DNA from: a virus | IMG/VR virus record: IMGVR_UViG_3300036853_000446 | Location: 62,001-126,000 of that record | Strand: one strand, 5' to 3' | DNA length: 64,000 nucleotides | Position numbers and translations under genes: made by a program | Shown: positions 3,183 through 51,103 of the stretch, one piece after another | Layout of the letters: each line of letters begins with the position of its first letter | How positions within the stretch are numbered: the stretch's first letter is position 1 | Notes under the pieces: model-generated | What the model was told of the DNA's origin: nothing | The model's database searches: none | What the model saw: only the letters and a program-made list of their open reading frames with translations

Positions 3183-4037
3183 TCAGCTCATTTGACCCAC
3201 GGCGTCGGCATATCCTTGCGCCCGCATCTGCCGAACGCCCACTGGACCAAAGTCCAGAGAATCAACGGCCAGGTGCGTGCTCGGCTGCAAGAGACGAATT
3301 TTCACGTCCTTATACTCTCCTGTCAGCTTTGCCAGATCGTTCTTGAGTCCCGCCTCTTTGAGATCGCCCCGCGTCACCTCGTCGAGGGCGAGATCGATGG
3401 CCCGGAGCAGGCGCCAAAGGGTTGTCTTTCCCTTTGGGTCCCAATTGCCCCGGTCATCCGGATTGCTCGTCATGATGACGTCGATCTCAGTTGCGCCAGC
3501 CCGAATCGCCTCTCCGATGGGCGTCACGTTTCGCAGACCGCCATCCGTCCATTCTTCACCGTCAATCTTCAATGCCTTGAAGAAGCCCGGGAAACTCGAA
3601 GACGCCAGCACCCACGACACGAAATCCGGCGACTTCTCGGTAGCCACGAAGTAGTTCCCCGTGACCCAGCTCACTGCACCAAGCCTCACCAACCGGCCCG
3701 AAGCCGCGATCGCGTTCGTGTCTAGTTCTTGCTGAACCCATTTTTGCAGAGGGCCTGAGTCGTAGACGGAGCACTTCCAAAGTGCCGCGACGTACCAGAG
3801 AAACCAGAATTTCCGAATATTCGATGTCGCGACGCGATCCCACATCGAGGAGACCTTGGCATAAGCCGCCGCTGGATCCCCGAGCGGCGCTTGACTCAAA
3901 ACTGCTGCATTGAGAGCCCCTACCGACACACCGCAGACGATCTCATAATCTCGCTTCTGATCGAGCAAAAGATAGCGCAAACCGCCTTCCTGAAACGCGC
4001 CTTTACTCCCTCCACCGCTGAGCACGAGGGCTCTCAT
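3183..4037 (-). CDS. Patatin-like phospholipase
   Basis: All patatin hallmarks are present: the oxyanion-hole motif GGGSKGAF at residues 8-15, the nucleophile elbow GVSVG at 36-40 (Ser38), and the catalytic Asp in DGG at 165-167. Length (284 aa) matches single-domain patatin lipases that cleave acyl esters of phospholipids. No signal peptide is seen; the WFLWYVAALW segment near 78-87 is hydrophobic and may touch membrane. Start is the ATG at 4037. It is embedded among tail genes, so it may be virion-carried or a late-expressed lipase acting on host membranes; neither is shown. Catalytic residues are intact, so activity is expected. Confidence 0.9.
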   Translation of the reverse strand: MRALVLSGGGSKGAFQEGGLRYLLLDQKRDYEIVCGVSVGALNAAVLSQAPLGDPAAAYAKVSSMWDRVATSNIRKFWFLWYVAALWKCSVYDSGPLQKWVQQELDTNAIAASGRLVRLGAVSWVTGNYFVATEKSPDFVSWVLASSSFPGFFKALKIDGEEWTDGGLRNVTPIGEAIRAGATEIDVIMTSNPDDRGNWDPKGKTTLWRLLRAIDLALDEVTRGDLKEAGLKNDLAKLTGEYKDVKIRLLQPSTHLAVDSLDFGPVGVRQMRAQGYADAVGQMS

Positions 4038-7872: not shown

Positions 7873-10800
7873 TCAGGTGTACTCCACGCCCAGCTCGAGG
7901 AGCACCCAGTCCCCCGCCAACGTGTCGCTGACGTTCGTACCGACGCGGGTGAGTTCGTATTGAACGAACGTGCCCGCGCTCAAGCTCAAACTGGAGAGCG
8001 TAATGGTCTGCGAGTCATATTGAAAGTTTGTATTGGTCGGGATGCTGATCGCGGTGAGATTAGTTACCGAACTCCAGGCACCCACCGCAGCGTTGTCGGG
8101 AATCGTTCGACGGTAGAGAGCGGGGACCACGGCGACCGTCCCGCCGGGTGCCGTCTGCGCTCTGGATTTGAAATAGAGGGTGACGTTCGTTGCTCCAGGC
8201 GGAATGGTCTCGGACCAGCTGACACCCTCCTGAGTGGTATCGTCGAAGCGTCGCACCGAGAGCCCAATGTTCACTAGGTCCGCCGACAACGGCGCAAAGG
8301 CGTTGACGGTCCAGTTCGCGTTGACGGGGGAGGTGAGGTCCGCAGCCTGATACCACCGGCGCTGCAACGGAATGCTGTCGAGCTTCGTCTTGTCCGTAGC
8401 GACCATGAATCCGTTCACGGAAGTCGTCACCGCCGCATGCAAGGTGCCACTCGTCTGTGCCCCGTGATCGTGGACGTGGTCAGACCGGACAAAGGTCGTC
8501 GCCGCCCCGGCTGCGTTCGCCGTGCCGATGGCTACGGGGGCAGCTGCAGCGACCGTGTGTTGATGATCCGATCGAGCAAGTGTTGTGGCCGTCCCTTCAA
8601 CAGCCGAGTTGCCAACAGCCACAGCACCCGCGGCGGGAGTGGCTGTGGTGACGTCGTGCTTATGGTCGCTTCGCGCGGCATCCGTTGCGACACCCGCCAC
8701 AGCCGCCGCCTTGGTGACGTCGGCTGGGGCATTCGACGTCAGACCCACGACCTGAGTGACGGAGAAGGTCAGAGCCGTCGTACCGACGGTAATGGGGTCG
8801 TTTGTCGTGAGAATCGCGACATGGTCACCATTGGCGGCGCCTTCCGAGATTCGGATGATGACTGCAGCGCGGACCTCTGCATCGGCATCGAAGTCTACAG
8901 CACGGGACCAGGCGCCTGCAGCCACGGCATAGATGCCGTTCTGAGACCCGGTTGACTGATCTTTAGCCAGGACCCGATCTCCAGCAACGGCCGAAACTCC
9001 ATCAATAGTCTGCGTGCCGGACAGCGTCAGATTTGCCGTCGAAGCCAATCGCACTGGCTGCTTGATGGCCGTGACGGTGCTGTCTAGGTTTACCTTGTCA
9101 GCGGCGAGCATGAAGCCATTGGCAGAACTCGTGACGACGGCGTGCAGGGTGCCGCTCGTTTGAGCCCCATGATCGTGAACGTGGTCGGAACGGATAAAGG
9201 TCGTTGCTACTCCGGCTGCGTTTGCCGTTCCAATGGCGACCGGGACCGCTACTGCCACCGAGTGAGTATGGTCCGAGCGGGCTAGGGTGATTGCCGTGCC
9301 TTCCGCCGCCGAAGCTGCTGCCGTGATCGCGCCCACTACTGCCGTGGACACGTCGTGCTTGTGATCCGCTCGCGCAGCCGTCGCGCCCACCCCAACCGCT
9401 GCTGCAGCTTTGGTAACGTCACTAGGAGCTGTCGAGGCGAGCGCCGCAGCCCCCGTAGCCATTCCGTCGAGTCTGGTCTTGTCTGTCGCCGAAAGGAAAC
9501 CCGATACTGATGTCGTCGCAGCTGCATGCAGAGTGCCACTCGACTGTGTACCGTGATCGTGAACATGATCTGACCGAGCGAACGTAGTGGCCACCCCGGC
9601 CGAGTTGGCTATTCCAACGGCTACTGGAATACCGGCGGCTATCGAATGGGTATGATCAGAACGCGCCATCGTAACGGCGGAGCCCTCGGTTGCCAAATCG
9701 CCGATGGCCGCGACCCCAGCCGCCGCGGTAGCTATGTCGTGCTTGTGGTCGACTCGCGCAGCCGTCGTGCCTATCCCAACGGTTGCCGCAGCCTTGGTAA
9801 TGTCCACGGGTGCACTCGACGCCAGTGCCGCGGCAGCCGCCGAAACCCCATCGAGTTTGGTCTTGTCAGCGGCCAACATAAAGCCGTTGGCAGCACCCGT
9901 CACCACCGCATGCAACGTGGCAACGGTTTGAGCCCCGTGATCGTGTACGTGATCGGATCGAACAAAGGTCGCGGCAGATCCGGCCGAGTTGACTGTTCCA
10001 ATGGTCGAGGGGGCAACCACCGCAATCGTGTGTTGGTGGTCACTACGGGCTAGAGTCGTTGCCGTGCCCTCAGCAGCCGTGTTGCCAGCAGCAACGGCCC
10101 CAGCAACCGGCACCGCCGTCGTGACGTCGTGTTTATGATCGGCTCTTGCTGCGTCGGCAGCCGTCCCAACGACCGCTGTGCTCTTGGTAATGTCGACAGG
10201 AGCCGTCGAGGCAAGAGCGGCGGCACTGACCGCAACCCCGTCGAGTTTTGTCTTGTCAGCGGCCAGCATGAAGCCGTTGGTCAATCCCGTCACTGCCGAA
10301 TGAAGTGTCCCGCTCGTCTGGGCACCGTGGTCATGGACGTGGTCGGACCGGACAAAAGTCGTTGCCGTTCCAGCTGCGTTCGCAGTCCCGATGGCCACGG
10401 GCGTGGCTGCAGTGACCGTGTGCTGGTGATCTGAACGAGCTAGGGTGGTGGCAGTGCCTTCGGCTTCCGAGTTGCCGACCGCCACCGCACCGGTTACCGG
10501 CGTGGCCGTCGTGACGTCATGTTTATGGTCGGCTCTGGCTGCATCCGTCGCGACCCCGACCGCGGCCGCTGCCTTCGTCACATCTGCGGGGGCCGTCGAT
10601 GTCAGGGGCGCAGCGCCCGCCGAGACCCCGTCGAGTTTGGTCTTGTCCGAAGCCGACAGGAAACCAGCAACGGAGGTTGTCGCCGCGGCGTGGAGCGTCC
10701 CACTCGTCTGGGCACCATGGTCATGGACGTGATCAGACCGAACCAGCGTCGTGGCCGACCCGGTGGAGTTGGCCGTACCGATCGCTACAGGAACGGCTGC

Positions 10801-13101
10801 GGTAACCGTATGAGTGTGGTCCGAGCGCGCGAGCGAGGTAGCCGTCCCTTCTGCAGCGACGTTGCCGACGGCAACGGCTCCCGCCGCCGGGGTCGCTGTA
10901 GAGACGTCGTGTTTATGGTCGGCCTTGGCCGCATCCGTCGCGACCCCGACCGCGGCCGCTGCCTTCGTCACATCTGCGGGCGGAGCGGCGGTCAAGGTCA
11001 GAGCAACCGGAGTTGCAAACGCGAGACCCGTCACCGCTAAAGTGATCGGATCGTCCGTCGTCAGCTGGAAAAGCTTGTTTCCGTTGGCGGTGCCCTCAGA
11101 AACGGGGACGACCGTGCCGCCGCGAACCTCGCTGCTCGCGTCGAAATCCACAGCCCGAACCCAGGCACCAGCGGCGACTACATAGATGCCGTTTTGAGAC
11201 CCCGTCGACTGGTCCTTGACGAGCACACGCTGCGTCGCGATGACCGAGACGCCGTCGATCGTCTGAGGTGCAGAAAGGGTGATGTTGGCCGTCGTGGCCG
11301 CTCGGACCGGCTGCTTGATCGCCGTCGTGATGCTGTCAAAGTTGACTTTGTCAGCGGCGGACATGAAACCCGCAATCGCAGTCGTCGCCACCGCGTGCAG
11401 GGTGCCACTGGTTTGGGCACCGTGATCGTGAACGTGGTCACTCCGGGTGAATGTCGTTGCTGCTCCACCCGAGTTGGCTATACCAATAGCAACCGGAGTG
11501 CCCCCCGCCACCGAGTGGGTGTGGTCGCTCCGAGCTAGAGATACAGCCGTACCCTCGGTTGCGGCACCTCCGATGGCTACAGCGCCGGTCGCGGCCGTCG
11601 TGATGTCGTGCTTATGATCAGACCGGGCAAGCGACGTAGCCGTACCCTCGGCGGCGGCCGCCTTCGTAACGTTGACGGGGATGGCCGTTGAAATGTCATG
11701 CTTGTGATCTGCCCGGGCTGCGTCTGTAGCGACGCCCACGGCAGCGGCGGCCTTCGTGACGTCGACGGGTGCCGCGGCCGTCAAAGTTAGGGCGACGGGA
11801 GTTGCAAAGACGAGAGCTGTCGAGCCCAACGCGATCGGGTCGTCCGAGATGAGCTGGAAAATCCGATTCGCGTTCGTCGTACCTTCCGAGACGGCGACGA
11901 TGAGCCCACCTCGAACTTCGGCGCTATTGTCGAAATCTACAGAGCGAGTCCAGGCGCCCGTTGCAGCAACGTAAATGCCGTTGTTGGCTCCCGTGATCTG
12001 GTCCTTGACCAGGACCCGGTCAGCTGCGACGACGGACACGCCGTCGATCGTCTGAGTACCCGACAACGTGATGTTTGCGGTCGTGGCCGCCCGCACTGGC
12101 TGCTTGATCGCCGTGACCGTACTGTCGAAATCCGCCTTGTCAGCGGCAGACATGAACCCAGCCACGGAAGTAGTGACCACCGCGTGCAGGGTGCCGCTCG
12201 TCTGGGCACCATGATCGTGGACATGGTCACTTCGGGTGAACGTCGTTGCCGAGCCGGCGGCATTCGCCGTTCCAATCGCCACCGGGATCCCCCCAGCAAT
12301 CGAGTGGGTGTGGTCCGAGCGCGCGAGCGACGTCGCGCTACCTTCCGTAGCCGAATCCCCGATGGCGGCAGCTCCAACCGTAGCCGTTGTGATATCGTGC
12401 TGGTGGTCTGCCCGGGCCGCGTCGGTGGCCACCCCGACGGCAGCCGCTGCCTTCGTGACGTTGACCGGAGCCGACAGAGTGAGGGCTGCAGATCCCTCGG
12501 AGACCCCGTCGAGCTTGGTCTTGTCCGGAGCCGATAGGAAGCCTGCAACAGAGGTCGTGGCCACCGCATGAAGAGTGCCACTCGTCTGGGCTCCGTGGTC
12601 GTGGACGTGGTCGCTTCGGACAAAGGTCGCCGCAGAGCCTGCGGCATTCGCGGTGCCAACTGTGACCGGGTTGCCCCCTGCCACCGAGTGGGTATGATCC
12701 GAACGGGCTAAAGAAGTGGCCGATCCTTCGGCAGCAACGCCTCCAATGGACACGGCACCCGGGGTTGCCGTCGAGACATCGTGCTTGTGGTCTGCGCGTG
12801 CCGCATCCGTTGCAACACCGATGGCAGCTGCAGTCGTCGTAACATCGACGGGGGGCGTAGTAGTGAGCCCCGTGCTCCCCCCGACTCCGTCCCAAGTGGG
12901 CGTAATCGAGGTGAGGACCCAGAGCGTACTGTCGTCCTCTTGAAGTGCCAGTCGATCTAGGTCATCTACCGTCAGATTTCCAAGAATGGCGGGCACACCA
13001 ACGGTCGGCGTGAAGGCAACTCGACTCGCCGCGTTGGCAAACCTCCACGCAATAGGAGTGTGAGGTCCCTTAGCGATTGTAACTTTTCGATGCTCGCCCA
13101 T
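7873..13101 (-). CDS. Giant repetitive tail fibre with HxH motifs, 1742 aa
   Basis: Probable long tail fibre or adhesin. After an 80-residue N-terminus it consists of nine copies of a module of about 125-130 residues, each with ADHKHD, SDHTHS and SDHVHDHGAQTSGTLHA segments; repeated HxH pairs in T4 fibre tips (gp37) coordinate metal in trimeric shafts. Three copies carry an inserted domain of about 100 residues starting IKQPVRAATTANITLS and containing DRVLVKDQ, common in phage fibres. The last 130 residues (from RRWYQAADL) are a non-repeated tip. Start is the ATG at 13101 with GTGAG upstream; a 22-bp element shared with the 20.7-kb gap lies immediately before. Repeats extend to DNA level. Confidence 0.85.
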   Translation of the reverse strand: MGEHRKVTIAKGPHTPIAWRFANAASRVAFTPTVGVPAILGNLTVDDLDRLALQEDDSTLWVLTSITPTWDGVGGSTGLTTTPPVDVTTTAAAIGVATDAARADHKHDVSTATPGAVSIGGVAAEGSATSLARSDHTHSVAGGNPVTVGTANAAGSAATFVRSDHVHDHGAQTSGTLHAVATTSVAGFLSAPDKTKLDGVSEGSAALTLSAPVNVTKAAAAVGVATDAARADHQHDITTATVGAAAIGDSATEGSATSLARSDHTHSIAGGIPVAIGTANAAGSATTFTRSDHVHDHGAQTSGTLHAVVTTSVAGFMSAADKADFDSTVTAIKQPVRAATTANITLSGTQTIDGVSVVAADRVLVKDQITGANNGIYVAATGAWTRSVDFDNSAEVRGGLIVAVSEGTTNANRIFQLISDDPIALGSTALVFATPVALTLTAAAPVDVTKAAAAVGVATDAARADHKHDISTAIPVNVTKAAAAEGTATSLARSDHKHDITTAATGAVAIGGAATEGTAVSLARSDHTHSVAGGTPVAIGIANSGGAATTFTRSDHVHDHGAQTSGTLHAVATTAIAGFMSAADKVNFDSITTAIKQPVRAATTANITLSAPQTIDGVSVIATQRVLVKDQSTGSQNGIYVVAAGAWVRAVDFDASSEVRGGTVVPVSEGTANGNKLFQLTTDDPITLAVTGLAFATPVALTLTAAPPADVTKAAAAVGVATDAAKADHKHDVSTATPAAGAVAVGNVAAEGTATSLARSDHTHTVTAAVPVAIGTANSTGSATTLVRSDHVHDHGAQTSGTLHAAATTSVAGFLSASDKTKLDGVSAGAAPLTSTAPADVTKAAAAVGVATDAARADHKHDVTTATPVTGAVAVGNSEAEGTATTLARSDHQHTVTAATPVAIGTANAAGTATTFVRSDHVHDHGAQTSGTLHSAVTGLTNGFMLAADKTKLDGVAVSAAALASTAPVDITKSTAVVGTAADAARADHKHDVTTAVPVAGAVAAGNTAAEGTATTLARSDHQHTIAVVAPSTIGTVNSAGSAATFVRSDHVHDHGAQTVATLHAVVTGAANGFMLAADKTKLDGVSAAAAALASSAPVDITKAAATVGIGTTAARVDHKHDIATAAAGVAAIGDLATEGSAVTMARSDHTHSIAAGIPVAVGIANSAGVATTFARSDHVHDHGTQSSGTLHAAATTSVSGFLSATDKTRLDGMATGAAALASTAPSDVTKAAAAVGVGATAARADHKHDVSTAVVGAITAAASAAEGTAITLARSDHTHSVAVAVPVAIGTANAAGVATTFIRSDHVHDHGAQTSGTLHAVVTSSANGFMLAADKVNLDSTVTAIKQPVRLASTANLTLSGTQTIDGVSAVAGDRVLAKDQSTGSQNGIYAVAAGAWSRAVDFDADAEVRAAVIIRISEGAANGDHVAILTTNDPITVGTTALTFSVTQVVGLTSNAPADVTKAAAVAGVATDAARSDHKHDVTTATPAAGAVAVGNSAVEGTATTLARSDHQHTVAAAAPVAIGTANAAGAATTFVRSDHVHDHGAQTSGTLHAAVTTSVNGFMVATDKTKLDSIPLQRRWYQAADLTSPVNANWTVNAFAPLSADLVNIGLSVRRFDDTTQEGVSWSETIPPGATNVTLYFKSRAQTAPGGTVAVVPALYRRTIPDNAAVGAWSSVTNLTAISIPTNTNFQYDSQTITLSSLSLSAGTFVQYELTRVGTNVSDTLAGDWVLLELGVEYT
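10541..10590 (-). repeat. 50-bp exact direct repeat, copy 1
   Basis: Identical over 50 bp to 10931-10980; the flanking base differs on both sides. The distance of 390 bp equals one fibre module. Confidence 0.9.
10931..10980 (-). repeat. 50-bp exact direct repeat, copy 2
   Basis: Identical over 50 bp to 10541-10590, one module away in the fibre gene. Confidence 0.9.
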
Positions 13102-44769: not shown

Positions 44770-45798
44770 TCAGGCCCCGACTCCCGATCCGCAAAATCGA
44801 CCGTCCGGGCCTTGGGAGGTTACCTCCCACCGCTTCCGAGTCTGATTGCGCACTAGCAAACTGAGCCACGCGCAATTGCAATGCCAATTCTGGGCCTCGC
44901 ATTCGGCGCATTGCCCGCAGGAATAATGCCCTTCCGTGTTCATCCGCGCCATCACGTAGGCGGACGAAGGGCGCTCGCCCATGTCTCGAAAGAACTCCTC
45001 GAAGGAATTCCGCCACCTCGAGCACACCGTGATCCCGATCCCGCCGTAGCGAGGATACCTATCGCTCCTAGAGTTAAAGCATCGCGTGTGAATGCCCACC
45101 CATGCTCGATACTCCGGAGTCTTGGTCATTCCGTGTCTGGTATTTGCGTGCGAAGGACCTGACCTGCACGGCCGACGATTCGTGTTCTGCTCAGCCCTCG
45201 TAGCCCACCGGACGTTGCCCGGCTCGTAATTCCCATCGTTATTGATTCGATCAAGTGAATGCTGGGGACTCGGCCGAGGCCCAACGTAGTTGTAAAAAGC
45301 CTGAAAGTCGTGGATCCACGCGGAGTGCATCCGAATGCCACGCCCGCCGTAATCGTCATAGGCGTGATGGTTGACATCGAAACAGCGCGACTTGATCGCA
45401 CCCCAGCATCTATGCTCCGGCTTATAGCTCATTCCGTGTCTGAAATTAGTGAGGCCTCCATTTCGCTCAACACCACTGACGACGGGCCACTGTGGCCGTC
45501 TTCCAGGTCTCCTCGGCCGGCAATTAGCTGCCTGTTCGACCCAAGTTGCCCAGCGCACGTTGCCTGGCTCGTAGTTACCCTCGTTGTTGATACGATCAAG
45601 CGAATGATCCGGAGACGGCTTCGGGCCCACGTGCTCATAGAACGCCTTGAAATCGTGCACCCATTCAGGATGCACCGTTATTCCGCGTCCGCCATAGTCA
45701 GGGTACCTTTGACTATTGCAATTCAAACACCGAGCTTTGATTTGACTCCAACAGTGGTATTCGGGGGTCTTACTCAACCCGTGTGATTTGACGGCCAT
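44770..45798 (-). CDS. Protein with three tandem HNH-like endonuclease modules, 342 aa
   Basis: Modules at about 6-92, 121-206 and 222-293. Modules 1 and 2 both read HG-(M/L)-S-K-TPEY... RC...YGGRGI... then HSLDRINN(D/E)GNYEPGN VRWAT, the signature of a phage HNH endonuclease family; H65/D68/N80 and H180/D183/N195 are candidate metal-site residues. Module 3 keeps the N-terminal half (KTPEYRAWVGIHTRCFN...YGGIGI) but replaces the active segment with SAYVMARMNTEGHYSCGQCAEC, losing H and D, so it looks inactive. Usual family members have one module. ATG start at 45798. Homing or DNA processing roles are possible; tandem fusion is unusual. Confidence 0.7.
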   Translation of the reverse strand: MAVKSHGLSKTPEYHCWSQIKARCLNCNSQRYPDYGGRGITVHPEWVHDFKAFYEHVGPKPSPDHSLDRINNEGNYEPGNVRWATWVEQAANCRPRRPGRRPQWPVVSGVERNGGLTNFRHGMSYKPEHRCWGAIKSRCFDVNHHAYDDYGGRGIRMHSAWIHDFQAFYNYVGPRPSPQHSLDRINNDGNYEPGNVRWATRAEQNTNRRPCRSGPSHANTRHGMTKTPEYRAWVGIHTRCFNSRSDRYPRYGGIGITVCSRWRNSFEEFFRDMGERPSSAYVMARMNTEGHYSCGQCAECEAQNWHCNCAWLSLLVRNQTRKRWEVTSQGPDGRFCGSGVGA

Positions 45799-45860: not shown

Positions 45861-46577
45861 TCAAGTGATCTCGTCGCCGCCCCGTCCTTGCCACTGTGGC
45901 AATTTCACTTCGTGCAAAAGATTGAAGCCACGTTGCGCTATTTTACAGAAGATTGCTCGGTACGGCTCGTACTTTGAGTTTTGAGCAGCGATGTCTTCGA
46001 GCCGCGCCACCGCCTTGAAGAACCGGTGCCGCACCCTGCCTTGGGTCAAGTTCAGCTGCTGCGCGACGACGGACTGGCACGTGGTTTCCCACATATGAAT
46101 CAGGATCTGGACGTCGATGTGAATGCCATCGATCGTGCGCTGATCGCCCTCCTGGGATGCCTTCCCACCCGTCCGAGCTACGAAAACCTCAGACAAATCT
46201 ATCAGCATCTGCTCGCGCGACACGTCGGGGATCTCGAGCAAGAACTTGATTCGTTTGATGCCTCGCGCCAAACGATACGAGACCGCGGCCTGTGTCATGC
46301 CGAAGATCGTGGCAATGTCGGCCTGACGCTTGTCCATGAGGAAATACAACTCGATGATATCCGCCTCGCGCACGGGTATCCGCTCGAGGAGCGGGTGCAG
46401 CTTTACCTTGTATTCCTGAGTCTCGAGGAGGGCTCGCATCTCCGCGAGCTGCTCATTCTCCTCGATATCGGCCCGTTCATCCTCATCATTATCCGCCCAG
46501 CCATCATACCGCGGGTCGCAGAAAACGAAGCGGTTCAACTCATTGGGATCGATTGGAACGACGTAACCATTACTCAT
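45861..46577 (-). CDS. Sigma-like transcription factor with two helix-turn-helix segments
   Basis: Residues 82-112 (DKRQADIATIFGMTQAAVSY...) form a helix-turn-helix with the sigma region 4 pattern QADIA...QAAVSYRLARGIKRIKFLL; preceding residues (HPLLERIPVREADIIELYFL) fit the helix ahead of region 4. A second segment at about 165-195 (TCQSVVAQQLNLTQGRVRHR) is also helix-turn-helix-like. Together they suggest a phage sigma factor for late transcription, although a region 2 is not clear and the acidic N-terminus (DNEDERADIEENEQ) is unlike host sigma. Start ATG at 46577. It could recognise the CTTTT elements ahead of virion genes. Confidence 0.6.
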   Translation of the reverse strand: MSNGYVVPIDPNELNRFVFCDPRYDGWADNDEDERADIEENEQLAEMRALLETQEYKVKLHPLLERIPVREADIIELYFLMDKRQADIATIFGMTQAAVSYRLARGIKRIKFLLEIPDVSREQMLIDLSEVFVARTGGKASQEGDQRTIDGIHIDVQILIHMWETTCQSVVAQQLNLTQGRVRHRFFKAVARLEDIAAQNSKYEPYRAIFCKIAQRGFNLLHEVKLPQWQGRGGDEIT

Positions 46578-46589
46578 GGAATCGACTCT

Positions 46590-48434
46590 CTAGGTAGACA
46601 CAGACGACCTGCCCAAAAGTGCCTGCATTATCGGCAGCGCCTTGATATCCAGGTCGTGTAGCTTCGCCGCAGCCGCGGCTTCATCTTCATCGGGTTCAAT
46701 CCTAGAGATGTTCACGTCGACGAGCGTCATGAGTTCCAGGTTGATTTTGACTTGGGCAGATGCCCCCATGACGCGCTCGTACTGTCCCTTGTTCAACGAC
46801 GCGAGGCCCGAAGCGTAGACCCGCTCGACGGAGCCGTGCTCCTGGATGAGGGTTCGCAATACCTTCTTCGGCACGCGCGGGACGCCCGGCAGATTGTCAG
46901 ACTTGTCTCCGAACAACGAACGTAGATGGATCACCTTTTCCGGAGGCACCCCTAACTGATAGACCACTCCCTGCACATCGTACAGCACTTCCTTCCGACT
47001 ACCAACGGCGGGAAAGAGGAACATCGTAGATGCGGTGACCAGTTGCAGGAAATCTCTGTCCGTCGAGCAGATCAAATTCGTCTGACCCTCGAGGTCGTGA
47101 CGCACCAACGTGGCCAACACATCGTCAGCTTCTTCCTCGGGGTTCCAAGCCTGTCTCACACCGAGCAACGGCAGCAGCTCACGCAGGAACCATAACGGGT
47201 TAAACGCGACGTCACCCACAACGACAGTCAGTTCCTTACGTGGCCGGTTGCCCTTGTAATCGCCATATTGCGCACGTCGCCGTCCCGAAGATCCATCCCA
47301 TGCAACCCAGAAGCAGGCCTCCGGATAACGCTTCCTCAGCGCACCGAGGCTCCGAAGGAAGCCCAGGATCATGCCCGTCGGACGCCCCTTCGCATCGGTC
47401 AGACGTGCGATACCGGGCGCAAACGCGCAGCGGAACGCCAGGTTGTGTCCATCGATCAACACGTTCTGAATCACCGCTTCATCCCCCTTGTCGCCGCGCG
47501 CCAAGTCGCGGACTAGATCTTCGACGCTCTGACTCATGGCGCGAATGCGATCCTCGATTTCACAGAGCCGCCGATACGTCTCGAACCTCGATCGCATCCG
47601 ACTCTGTGCCTCCGCCAGGCTGGCAAAATGCACCACGTTGAAAAGGCGCTGCCCTTGAACGTGCCAGTGCACGAGCGTCTTCAGCATTCCGAAGCGCTCG
47701 ACGATCCGAGCGTGTAAGGCGCGAAGCTCTCCGCCGCGTGGCGGGTAGCCGTAGAGAAACGAGTAGAGCAGGCGACCCGACCACAGCGAGCGAGACACGA
47801 AGACGTATGCGGTGAGGATTCTGAGCACGTCGTCGATGTCGCCACGATAGCCCAGCGTCGCCTTGGCCATCTTGAACCAAGCACGCAGGTACCCGAGTCG
47901 CGCGAAATACAAACTCAAGGGCGCGCGGTCCACGACCTTCAGGGCGCTCCGGGGAAGAGTGACGATGCTCTGCTTGCTCCGCAGCTCGATGTGAACCTGG
48001 ACTTTACGGTCCTCCAGGATCTCCGTAATGACCGTCGCTTCGATGTTCTTGTACGGGCCCGAGCAAATCAGCACGCTGTCGCCCACGCCAATGTCTTGAT
48101 TGACCTCAGCCCGGAGCTTCTCTTTTAGATCCTCGATGTAGGATCCGGTAACGGTCGCTATCTGACCACCGCGTCTCAAGACAGACTGAAAGAGCCGAGT
48201 CTCTTCGAGCCGGCGGTAATCTCGATCGGTACGTTCCCGCCGGACGAAGGCGTAGCCCGGCATGAGGTAGTGGACGTCCTTGTCCTCACCGACCTGTGTC
48301 TCGATTGCCGGGAGGTAGACATCACACTTGCCCAAGATCTTCGACGCCGCGGCGAAAACGACGGCCGGCGTCTCTTTCTCTCCCGACGGCGTCAACTCGA
48401 CGACGATCCACTGCGCGCCTTGGTCAGTTGCCAT
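46590..48434 (-). CDS. Fusion of NusG-like domain with 5'-3' exonuclease (FEN/PIN), 614 aa
   Basis: One uninterrupted frame. Residues 1-170 resemble NusG/RfaH: NGN-like segment with YLMPGYAFVRR (56-66) and a KOW segment at 117-168 (GDSVLICSGPYKNIEATVI, ...RSALKVVD). Residues 170-320 are a helical connector. Residues 322-540 form a flap-type 5' nuclease: VLIDGHNLAFR (D328), FWVAWDGSSGRRRAQYGDYK (D380), EEEADDVLATL (E435, D437, D438), STDRDF (D459, D461) and FGDKSDNLPG (D510, D513), a full metal-binding set. It could remove RNA primers or process flaps, with the NusG part binding RNA polymerase. The ATG at 48434 overlaps the DnaX stop. I know of no such fusion in standard phage families, though my recall is not exhaustive. 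Confidence 0.8.
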   Translation of the reverse strand: MATDQGAQWIVVELTPSGEKETPAVVFAAASKILGKCDVYLPAIETQVGEDKDVHYLMPGYAFVRRERTDRDYRRLEETRLFQSVLRRGGQIATVTGSYIEDLKEKLRAEVNQDIGVGDSVLICSGPYKNIEATVITEILEDRKVQVHIELRSKQSIVTLPRSALKVVDRAPLSLYFARLGYLRAWFKMAKATLGYRGDIDDVLRILTAYVFVSRSLWSGRLLYSFLYGYPPRGGELRALHARIVERFGMLKTLVHWHVQGQRLFNVVHFASLAEAQSRMRSRFETYRRLCEIEDRIRAMSQSVEDLVRDLARGDKGDEAVIQNVLIDGHNLAFRCAFAPGIARLTDAKGRPTGMILGFLRSLGALRKRYPEACFWVAWDGSSGRRRAQYGDYKGNRPRKELTVVVGDVAFNPLWFLRELLPLLGVRQAWNPEEEADDVLATLVRHDLEGQTNLICSTDRDFLQLVTASTMFLFPAVGSRKEVLYDVQGVVYQLGVPPEKVIHLRSLFGDKSDNLPGVPRVPKKVLRTLIQEHGSVERVYASGLASLNKGQYERVMGASAQVKINLELMTLVDVNISRIEPDEDEAAAAAKLHDLDIKALPIMQALLGRSSVST

Positions 48435-49824
48435 GATGCGCCCGCCGAAGAGCCTCTTTGAGAGTCGCCGTAAAATCCGACGCAGTCAGCCCGTTCGGGT
48501 GGTCATCGACGGGGGCGAACGTCAGCTCCACTTTCGGCTTGTGAACGGTTTTGGCCGAGCCCACCCCCTTCCCACGGGGCGCCAGCATACCCGCCTCGTC
48601 GATCGGAGTTCTGGGCGTGTTGCCGTCTCCGTAATTCTTGAGAGGCGTGGGGACAGGGGCTAAGTGAACGACGCTTGCCGCTCGGGGCGCGACCGGTGTG
48701 ATTGCCGCGACGGGCGGCGGTCCCGTCGGCAATGCAGGGGCTGCGATGGTGACGGGGAGTTGGACGACTCGCGAACTCGACGCCGCGGGGGGCACGCCGT
48801 CAGCGCCCAAGGCCACCGCCGCGCAGATCAAGTCGAGCCTGGAAACGTGAGCGCCCAAACTCAGGAAATACTTGGCGACGCCGACGGTGGCAGCGCCGTA
48901 CCGGGCGAACACTTGCGCGGCTCGGTCTCGATCCAACGCCGAGTAGTCCGTGAAGATCTTGCTCGCCTGCCGGTAGGCATTCATCGCCGCCTCCGCGATG
49001 CCCGTCGCGACTTGAAAGGGCCCCACCCGGTCACAAGCCCCCTCGAGCAGCTCGATCGCCCGGGAAGCGTCCCCCAGCGCCAAAAGGATATCGTAGTAGA
49101 GAGAGACCACGGTAAGGTCGAGTCTCTCCCGGACGGAGTCCATCGTGATGGCGCCGAGTTGCGCGATGGTCTCGAGCCGATTCAAGACGTCTCGCACATG
49201 CCCGCGCGCGTAGTCGATGACCGTCAGGATGGCGTCGTCCTCGTACTCGACGCCTTCCTGGGTAAGGATCTTTTGAACCCTTCCGAGGATGTCCTCCTTC
49301 TGAATCTTCCGGATCTCGTAGACTTCGCAGCGCGACTTGATCGTGTCCCGCAGCTTGGCGTACTCGGTCGTGCAGAACAGGACGACGACGCGGTTGTCTT
49401 CGATCGGCTTCAACAGGACGTCTTGGGCGTCGCGACTCATCCGATGCGCCTCGTCCAGGAGGTAGATGCGCTTGCGCACCCCCGGAACGTCGTACGCCAA
49501 ATGGTCAACGAGCCGCCGCATGTCGGCCGTCGTGCCCTGACTCGCGGCATCCAGCTCGGTGAGTGCCACCATCGTTTCGTTCAAACACGCCAGGCAGTGT
49601 TCGCACGCATTACAAGGGTCGCCGTCCTCCCGCGGCTGCAGGCAAAGGAGGGCTCTCGCCAAGATCCTTGCGAGGGTGGTCTTACCGGACCCATAAGGTC
49701 CCGAAAAGATGTAGGACGTGTTGAAGCCCTCACCTTTGAGCAGGCGCGCGCGAAGGACCCTGACAGAGCCCTCCTGACCCAGCACGTCGGCAAAGACGAG
49801 CGGTCTATAGCGTGTATCCCACAA
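48424..49824 (-). CDS. dnaX: DNA polymerase III clamp loader subunit DnaX-like
   Basis: AAA+ clamp loader ATPase, 466 residues. Walker A SGPYGSGKTT at 41-50, a Cys zinc cluster CNACEHCLAC at 71-80, Walker B LLDEAHRM at 122-129, and a sensor region TIKSRCEVYEI. It loads the sliding clamp encoded at 52.9-54.2 kb. The C-terminal 130 residues are Pro/Ala/Val-rich and end ALRRAHHGN, shorter and unlike the tau tail of bacterial DnaX. No slippery heptamer of the A AAA AAG type was seen. Start is TTG at 49824, with GAGGGGG 14 nt upstream. Confidence 0.9.
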   Translation of the reverse strand: MWDTRYRPLVFADVLGQEGSVRVLRARLLKGEGFNTSYIFSGPYGSGKTTLARILARALLCLQPREDGDPCNACEHCLACLNETMVALTELDAASQGTTADMRRLVDHLAYDVPGVRKRIYLLDEAHRMSRDAQDVLLKPIEDNRVVVLFCTTEYAKLRDTIKSRCEVYEIRKIQKEDILGRVQKILTQEGVEYEDDAILTVIDYARGHVRDVLNRLETIAQLGAITMDSVRERLDLTVVSLYYDILLALGDASRAIELLEGACDRVGPFQVATGIAEAAMNAYRQASKIFTDYSALDRDRAAQVFARYGAATVGVAKYFLSLGAHVSRLDLICAAVALGADGVPPAASSSRVVQLPVTIAAPALPTGPPPVAAITPVAPRAASVVHLAPVPTPLKNYGDGNTPRTPIDEAGMLAPRGKGVGSAKTVHKPKVELTFAPVDDHPNGLTASDFTATLKEALRRAHHGN

Positions 49825-49842: not shown

Positions 49843-50352
49843 TCAATTATCTTCATTCAGGTCGACTTCGACGTTCTCCGTTTCTTCGACGGACGCACCC
49901 GTCTCCTGCCGCACGATCTCGGCGATATTCAGGCTCTGGGCGACCTGGACAAAACTCGTGAGCGACTCGTTCCAGTTGCCGTGCCGCTGCAGGATGGTCG
50001 AGAATTCCTGCACGTCGGGCTCGCGCAGCGTCCATCGATACGATCCATCCTCCTCGTCCTCCTCCCCCGAGCAGCGCTCGAGCAGGTGGTCGACGAGCGC
50101 CGTCTTCTGGTCGTCGGTCAATACCAGCCACTTCGGCTCGGCGACTTCGATGCAGAAATCGAGTTCCGTCAGGCTTTCCCATCGTCCCGAGACCTTGACG
50201 GCTTTGCCGAGCAACTCGCGGCCCCCCTTCTTGGGCACGCGATCGATGAACACGTACGCGATTCGCGCGGTCGCGAGTTCAGGGTGATAGGTCGCCATGA
50301 GGCTCTGGGCTACGGCTTGAACGGACTCTGCCGGCGAGTACTCTGCGGACAT
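49843..50352 (-). CDS. Degenerate phage metallopeptidase-like protein, 169 aa
   Basis: Residues 3-95 match the putative phage metallopeptidase family (PhageMetallopep, PF18894 by recall): SPAESVQAVAQSL, HPELATARIAYVF, GKAVKVSG, then LDFCIEVAEPKW and ALVDHLLERC. The family normally ends in HELCH; here the same place reads HLLER, so the Glu and second His are lost and the peptidase is probably inactive. ATG at 50352 (GGAG upstream) is the start; the frame continues to 50451 but overlaps the primase stop at 50399. The C-terminal 60 residues are acidic. Confidence 0.6.
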   Translation of the reverse strand: MSAEYSPAESVQAVAQSLMATYHPELATARIAYVFIDRVPKKGGRELLGKAVKVSGRWESLTELDFCIEVAEPKWLVLTDDQKTALVDHLLERCSGEEDEEDGSYRWTLREPDVQEFSTILQRHGNWNESLTSFVQVAQSLNIAEIVRQETGASVEETENVEVDLNEDN

Positions 50353-50398
50353 ATGAGCTTCATCTCCATTTGGGTCGAATATGCATTCCCACGCCTCT

Positions 50399-51103
50399 TT
50401 AGGCGCAACAACGCTTGATGAGGGCGCCCAAACGTTGGTCGCCCCAAACACTCCACAGCTCGTTCGGGTCCTTCGTATTGTGGCCCGAAGGCATGGGAAC
50501 CCGAGGGAACCTGACGATCTTGATCTTGAATTGGTCGCTCAATTCGCGCGCGATATCGTGAGCAACTTTATAGCCTGTCGTATCCATGTCATAAGCAACG
50601 AAGATGGTTCGTGCGACCCTGCGTAGGACTCGCCGCAGCTGGCTTGATACACCGGCGTGAAGCGTCGAGATGACATTCGGCACGTGACGTTGAATCGGGC
50701 ACAAATCGAAAACGCCCTCGACGAGCCAAACCTCTTCGGTCTCCCAAACGCTCGCCATGGCTTGGGCCAAGCCAAAGAATGCGGGCTCTTCTTTCGACTC
50801 GAAATAGTCGAGGTACCCTTTGATCTTCGGCTCGCGATCCCTAAACTGGAGCCCCAACACGACGCCGAGCGTGCTCGTCAGGGGGAAAACCAAGGGATCT
50901 TTGAACTGCTTTCTGTGGGCCGACCACCACGTGACAAATCGAGGATCACAACCAAGCCCCGTCGGAAGGCGGGCCCCCGGCAGGATCCCTATGTCGAAGG
51001 CGTCGATTTGTTCGTCGCTCACCCCGCGGCGCCAGAGCGCTTCTCGACTCTCGGCGACCATTTGCGCGTGCGCCGTCCCGACCATTTCCGTCATCCAGCT
51101 CAC
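50399..51103 (-). CDS. TOPRIM-domain DNA primase (catalytic core only), 234 aa
   Basis: TOPRIM fold: WLVEGVFDL at 126-134 (E129), then TIFVAYDMDTTGYKVAHDIA at 167-186 (D172, D174). The N-terminal 100 residues (AHRKQFKDPLVFPLTSTLG) form the RNAP-like basic subdomain of DnaG. There is no zinc-binding N-terminal domain and no helicase-binding C-terminus, so the zinc ribbon must be elsewhere or absent. It starts at GTG 51103, overlapping the stop of the gene upstream (GTGA). It likely lays primers for lagging-strand synthesis. Confidence 0.8.
   Translation of the reverse strand: MSWMTEMVGTAHAQMVAESREALWRRGVSDEQIDAFDIGILPGARLPTGLGCDPRFVTWWSAHRKQFKDPLVFPLTSTLGVVLGLQFRDREPKIKGYLDYFESKEEPAFFGLAQAMASVWETEEVWLVEGVFDLCPIQRHVPNVISTLHAGVSSQLRRVLRRVARTIFVAYDMDTTGYKVAHDIARELSDQFKIKIVRFPRVPMPSGHNTKDPNELWSVWGDQRLGALIKRCCA

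Follow-up and report, generated by a model that had tools for sequence, protein, structure and literature searches.

The window analysed here, a stretch of 64,000 nucleotides, corresponds to bases 62001-126000 of the 407,634-base virus record IMGVR_UViG_3300036853_000446. On its minus strand, one ATG-initiated frame of 614 codons encodes an NGN-KOW module of the NusG type, a helical linker and a flap-type 5'-3' exonuclease (FEN). The segments of this gene and its main neighbours are as follows:

46590-48434 (-): fused gene, 614 aa (Pfam, AlphaFold2, Foldseek)
48099-48434 (-): NGN domain, residues 1-112 (Pfam, profile comparison to PDB, homologue alignment)
47925-48098 (-): single KOW domain, residues 113-170 (Pfam, AlphaFold2)
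47475-47924 (-): linker, residues 171-320 (AlphaFold2, homologue comparison)
46593-47474 (-): FEN / 5'-3' exonuclease, residues 321-614 (Pfam, Foldseek, alignment)
45861-46577 (-): sigma-70 region 4-like gene (sigma-4), directly downstream of the fused gene
48424-49824 (-): dnaX-like clamp-loader gene, sharing 11 bases with the 5' end of the fused gene
50399-51103 (-): Toprim-domain (primase-like) gene of the same locus

The sequence-only reading had placed an NGN/KOW N-terminus and a nuclease in this one open frame, and Pfam, PHROGs, a sequence search of the PDB, AlphaFold2 and Foldseek all bear this out. For the nuclease half, the Pfam domains 5_3_exonuc_N (residues 325-492, 5e-25) and 5_3_exonuc (496-573, 5e-13) both match above their cut-offs, the protein has a PHROGs match to "exonuclease" (1e-18), and no DNA_pol_A domain was found in it by Pfam. 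The scores of the NusG half are lower: in the protein scan, NusG matched residues 8-103 slightly below its cut-off (E 4e-4, 21.4 bits vs. 22.2) and KOW matched residues 117-150 under its own (7e-4, 19.7 bits vs. 22.3), while NusG reached 25.3 bits, above the cut-off, in the whole-record search and PHROGs gave "transcription antiterminator" at 56-163 (6e-8). The NGN/KOW identity is accepted despite these borderline Pfam scores because a profile built from four NGN-KOW homologues reached solved NusG structures at 2.5e-8, the AlphaFold2 model is confident (pLDDT about 89-97 per block) and Foldseek matched this part to NusG at 2e-8 to 1e-7. Structure prediction of the N-terminus had been named beforehand as a test of the proposal, and the fold is indeed predicted with confidence. 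The nuclease is modeled at a pLDDT of mostly 95-98, and the same single model matched the Mycobacterium smegmatis FEN at 1.5e-17; human XPG and yeast Rad2, two further members of the FEN superfamily, were also reached, with bacterial and T5-type FENs being the nearest structures. The overall pTM is 0.55, with no fixed arrangement of NGN-KOW relative to the nuclease.

Each half has familiar counterparts. Like NusG and RfaH of the NusG/Spt5 family (PF02357 + PF00467), the protein has an NGN followed by one KOW and carries the W9/P42/GYxF signature, and its predicted fold matches NusG of RNAP-NusG and lambda N complexes; unlike them it adds a helical linker and a nuclease, and whereas Spt5 has multiple KOW domains, only one was found here (Pfam, AlphaFold2). 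With the FEN family (the Pol I N-domain, Bacillus subtilis FenA, M. smegmatis FEN, T5 D15; PF02739 + PF01367) it shares both Pfam domains, the nine metal-binding acids, K394/R397 of the YK..R motif and the fold, but a NusG module replaces the polymerase domain or free N-terminus. DNA polymerase I is likewise a FEN covalently joined to another nucleic-acid protein; here, however, the partner is a transcription factor, and the phage PolA is encoded elsewhere and lacks a FEN. The stand-alone NusG proteins of huge phages (LR745208.1 and IMG/VR contigs) have a homologous NGN-KOW in the same dnaX/sigma-4 position, but without linker or nuclease and in records from which PF02739 is absent, and the nearest of those compared are only about 28-32% identical to the window protein.

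Conservation differs between the three segments. W9, P42 and the GYxF motif (Y61/F63) are invariant across 43 homologues, and KOW is the best conserved stretch of the NusG half, at 52-67% identity in most fused relatives. All nine acids named in the sequence-only reading (D328, D380, E435, D437, D438, D459, D461, D510, and D513) are present and invariant in 20/20 fused proteins, so selection maintains an active nuclease; K394 and R397 are likewise invariant. The middle of the protein was said to lack a recognised domain, and no known domain was found in residues 171-320 by Pfam or AlphaFold2. The model places four long predicted helices there (pLDDT 53-76), and the linker is poorly conserved (11-24% identity), variable in length, and missing in one fused relative (L077) and in stand-alone NusG relatives. 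A conserved NGN-KOW and a conserved active site separated by a drifting linker are what one expects of two functional modules held together by a tether.

The fusion is widely conserved in a family of viral loci. A tblastn search of 50,697 phage records with the NGN half matched only LR745208.1, a 485-kb uncultured phage in which dnaX and the sigma-4 gene flank a separate 207-aa NusG gene at the equivalent position, and in whose record no PF02739 nuclease was found. The fusion itself was found in none of these 50,697 genomes, in line with the earlier remark that it was not known from characterised phages, and the same domain order is present on 25 other IMG/VR contigs. These carry 20 other distinct sequences (a continuous frame of 567-673 aa spanning NGN-KOW, linker and FEN), mostly at 36-46% protein identity, and were found by alignment-based scans; a single-sequence scan of viral contigs gave no match. 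L077 joins NGN-KOW straight to FEN (hhalign probability 85%, E 6e-6, against a profile built without it), and its model matches the transcription-complex entry 9guw_Z at 3.1e-6. In L076 (= L013) and L074 the frame is split at the linker/FEN border, with an ATGA overlap in L076. An A7 run lies where the NusG-linker and nuclease frames of L074 meet (3671-3677) and could reflect a genuine split, slippage or an error in sequencing. In L103, L104, and L107 the NusG lacks the linker and the FEN comes after it as a gene of its own (ATGA overlap in L107), and at least 24 contigs of this family of loci have a NusG that stands alone. PF02739 was absent from 24/24 stand-alone-NusG records searched, some of which may be fragments but which include ones of 372-619 kb, while every fused record, including those of 398-529 kb, has one PF02739 gene and it is always the NusG-linked copy. 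With the patterns used, 84,980 bacterial and archaeal species, each represented by a single genome, gave no relatives, and nothing relevant was found in the literature searched for NusG-FEN fusions or for NusG in huge/jumbo phages. The architecture, apparently undescribed in that literature, is a real, conserved fusion of two well-known families with a plausible function.

The surroundings of the gene are also stable. The locus order in the IMG/VR family is Mre11-like, PD-(D/E)XK, an unknown gene present in nuclease-bearing loci, SMC/AAA-like, Toprim, metallopeptidase, dnaX, NusG (with or without nuclease) and sigma-4. Where flanking sequence is available, dnaX adjoins the NusG gene in nearly every relative, and the sigma-4 gene comes next in relatives both with and without the nuclease; sigma-4 and NusG, neighbours in stand-alone and fused loci alike, possibly form a paired transcription module. 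The window's sigma-4 protein (45861-46577, minus strand) has a second conserved block, ETTCQS...QG.VRHRF, and a phage metallopeptidase (PF18894, 5e-26; 49843-50451, minus strand) is kept beside dnaX in the replication block. Adjoining the sigma-4 gene, 44770-45798 (minus strand) encodes a protein with about three tandem segment copies ending HSLDRINN.GNYEPGNVRWAT, the third degenerate, which resembles HNH/homing-endonuclease sequences; similar genes lie near the locus in L016, L063, and L101. About 1.6 kb of extra DNA (9788-11386) separates the fused gene from the sigma-4 gene in L016. The dnaX genes of some relatives carry intein-like insertions (L004 10817-12703; L007 4320-7297; a similar one in LR745208.1), one of which contains an endonuclease-like open frame, and the window dnaX has no insertion.

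A backbone tree built from three neighbour proteins (Toprim, metallopeptidase, sigma-4), and not from the NusG/FEN trait itself, groups the stand-alone loci on one side (100/100); on its other side it separates the adjacent-gene loci (100/100) from all fused and split loci placed in it (97/91); L077 was not among them. Four changes on this tree explain all the gene-order states. As the tree has no outgroup to fix its root, the order from NusG alone to adjacent to fused is the simplest reading and not proof. A FEN gene would accordingly have been inserted directly behind a free-standing nusG and later fused to it with a helical linker. A single origin of the locus FENs is not rejected by the FEN tree (AU p 0.32).

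A start-capable codon is retained at most linker/FEN junctions, where the window gene has two candidate features:

47472-47474 (-): in-frame GTG (V321), 7 codons before D328, candidate internal start
47483-47489 (-): AAGGGGG, Shine-Dalgarno-like, before GTG321 (duplex -10.5 kcal/mol)

The strength of the AAGGGGG is not significant, as about 12% of synonymous shuffles reach -10.5 kcal/mol. Across the fused genes, selection for an internal Shine-Dalgarno is not supported: the mean of -6.4 exceeds the values at the other ATG/GTG codons inside these genes (about -2.3 to -2.5), but synonymous shuffles already give -5.5. For the start codon itself, codons 5-14 before the first catalytic Asp include an ATG in 15/19 distinct fused genes, and an ATG or GTG in 17/19, vs. 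an ATG in 13.7% of equal-sized windows elsewhere in the same genes (binomial 2e-10, a figure that ignores the shared ancestry of the fused genes). In 11 of the 19, the distance from the start-capable codon to the Asp is exactly 7 codons, which is the position at which the separate FEN of L076 begins. The corresponding column holds Met in eight of 12 compared sequences plus two GTG-encoded Val, while linker columns -8 to -21 show at most four identical residues. L063 and L075 no longer have a start codon at the junction, and therefore the full-length form suffices in both. From this codon retention, a free nuclease may be made from the junction start as well; alternatively, the start is a relic of a former gene start. 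A gene with two products, in which a full-length, RNA-polymerase-borne nuclease clears co-transcriptional hybrids and a free FEN from the internal start does the Okazaki processing, seems to us rather unlikely, but if true a single locus would share one nuclease between transcription and replication.

The functional setting is narrowed by the rest of the genome. No second nuclease of the FEN family and no second NusG copy were found in the 407-kb record, the phage PolA is a separate gene with only a DNA_pol_A domain and no 5' nuclease domain, and RNase HI (PF00075) had no match in this record or 14 related ones; the fused protein therefore probably supplies primer and flap removal. An RNA polymerase beta'/large subunit was not found in the record either (PF04998, a search that very divergent phage polymerases could escape), so the host RNA polymerase is the likely partner. 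A NusG-type factor normally rides on RNA polymerase, and the nucleases by which bacteria deal with R-loops and with conflicts between replication and transcription are separate proteins that need recruitment. We tentatively favour, at slightly less than even confidence, a reading in which a NusG-type factor carries the phage's only detected FEN on a helical tether, serving RNA-polymerase-linked hybrid removal as well as primer and flap trimming. The NGN would bind the clamp of elongating host RNA polymerase, like other NusG proteins, and keep the FEN close to the upstream fork junction, the exit point of the nascent RNA. From there the nuclease could remove RNA from the RNA-DNA hybrids (R-loops) left behind the polymerase on a phage genome under active transcription and replication. 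The FEN, perhaps also separately translated from the internal start, would in addition trim RNA primers and 5' flaps, replacing the 5' nuclease missing from PolA. The proposal of the sequence-only reading, a protein that could follow the polymerase and clear hybrids, agrees with what is known of both families. In B. subtilis, the stand-alone FEN FenA, a homologue of the N-terminal part of Pol I, cuts RNA-DNA hybrids (PMC10191290) and is reported to aid the removal of R-loop RNA (review, PMC10804225).

The main rival to this tethered, polymerase-linked role is a plain replication nuclease joined to NusG by cistron fusion, an ordinary primer/flap FEN that gained a nusG extension after stop-codon loss, with the halves acting independently and the FEN partly free. 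We regard this as a serious contender, only a little less likely than the favoured reading. The adjacent genes of L103, L104, and L107, and the split L076 and L074 with their ATGA or Shine-Dalgarno-like starts, are what such a history would leave behind, as is the start-capable codon kept at most junctions. The retained start codons would also allow the free FEN to be the active form. The PolA without a 5' nuclease agrees with this account, and the dnaX and Toprim neighbours fit a plain replication role equally well. Coupling is further opposed by the two split relatives and the 24 contigs with a NusG without an adjoining FEN, and physical linkage is therefore not essential. However, some 20 divergent sequences stay fused through a long helical linker that neutral read-through does not need and that stand-alone NusG lacks, and L063 and L075 have no junction start from which to release the FEN.

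Two further proposals keep the recruitment by NusG but change its target. In transcription-coupled DNA repair, which we consider improbable, the NusG half would bring a nuclease of the XPG/FEN type to RNA polymerase that has stalled at phage DNA lesions; the matches to XPG and Rad2 and the Mre11-like, PD-(D/E)XK, AAA/SMC-like and RecA genes in the locus are compatible with this, but the closest structures are bacterial and T5-type FENs and not XPG. Still less probable is an anti-host weapon, with the NusG half leading the nuclease to host transcription complexes, where its cleavage of R-loops or nascent transcripts would switch off host expression. NusG binding would target all elongating RNA polymerase, and torpedo-type 5' nucleases acting on RNA polymerase have been discussed for B. 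subtilis RNase J1 (PMC10804225), but FENs require a 5' end and a junction structure, and the gene sits within a replication block common to relatives without the nuclease. An assembly or frameshift artefact joining two genes, which the different frames in two relatives (in L074, at its A7 run) might bring to mind, is ruled out by the same continuous frame on 25 other contigs at mostly 36-46% protein identity, leaving it a negligible probability.

If the tethered reading is right, the covalent joining of NusG and FEN would physically link the elongation complex directly to a nuclease that removes hybrids and flaps. With the matched natural states of one locus, in which NusG is alone, adjacent to the FEN gene, split from it or fused with it, the benefit of tethering is open to experiment.
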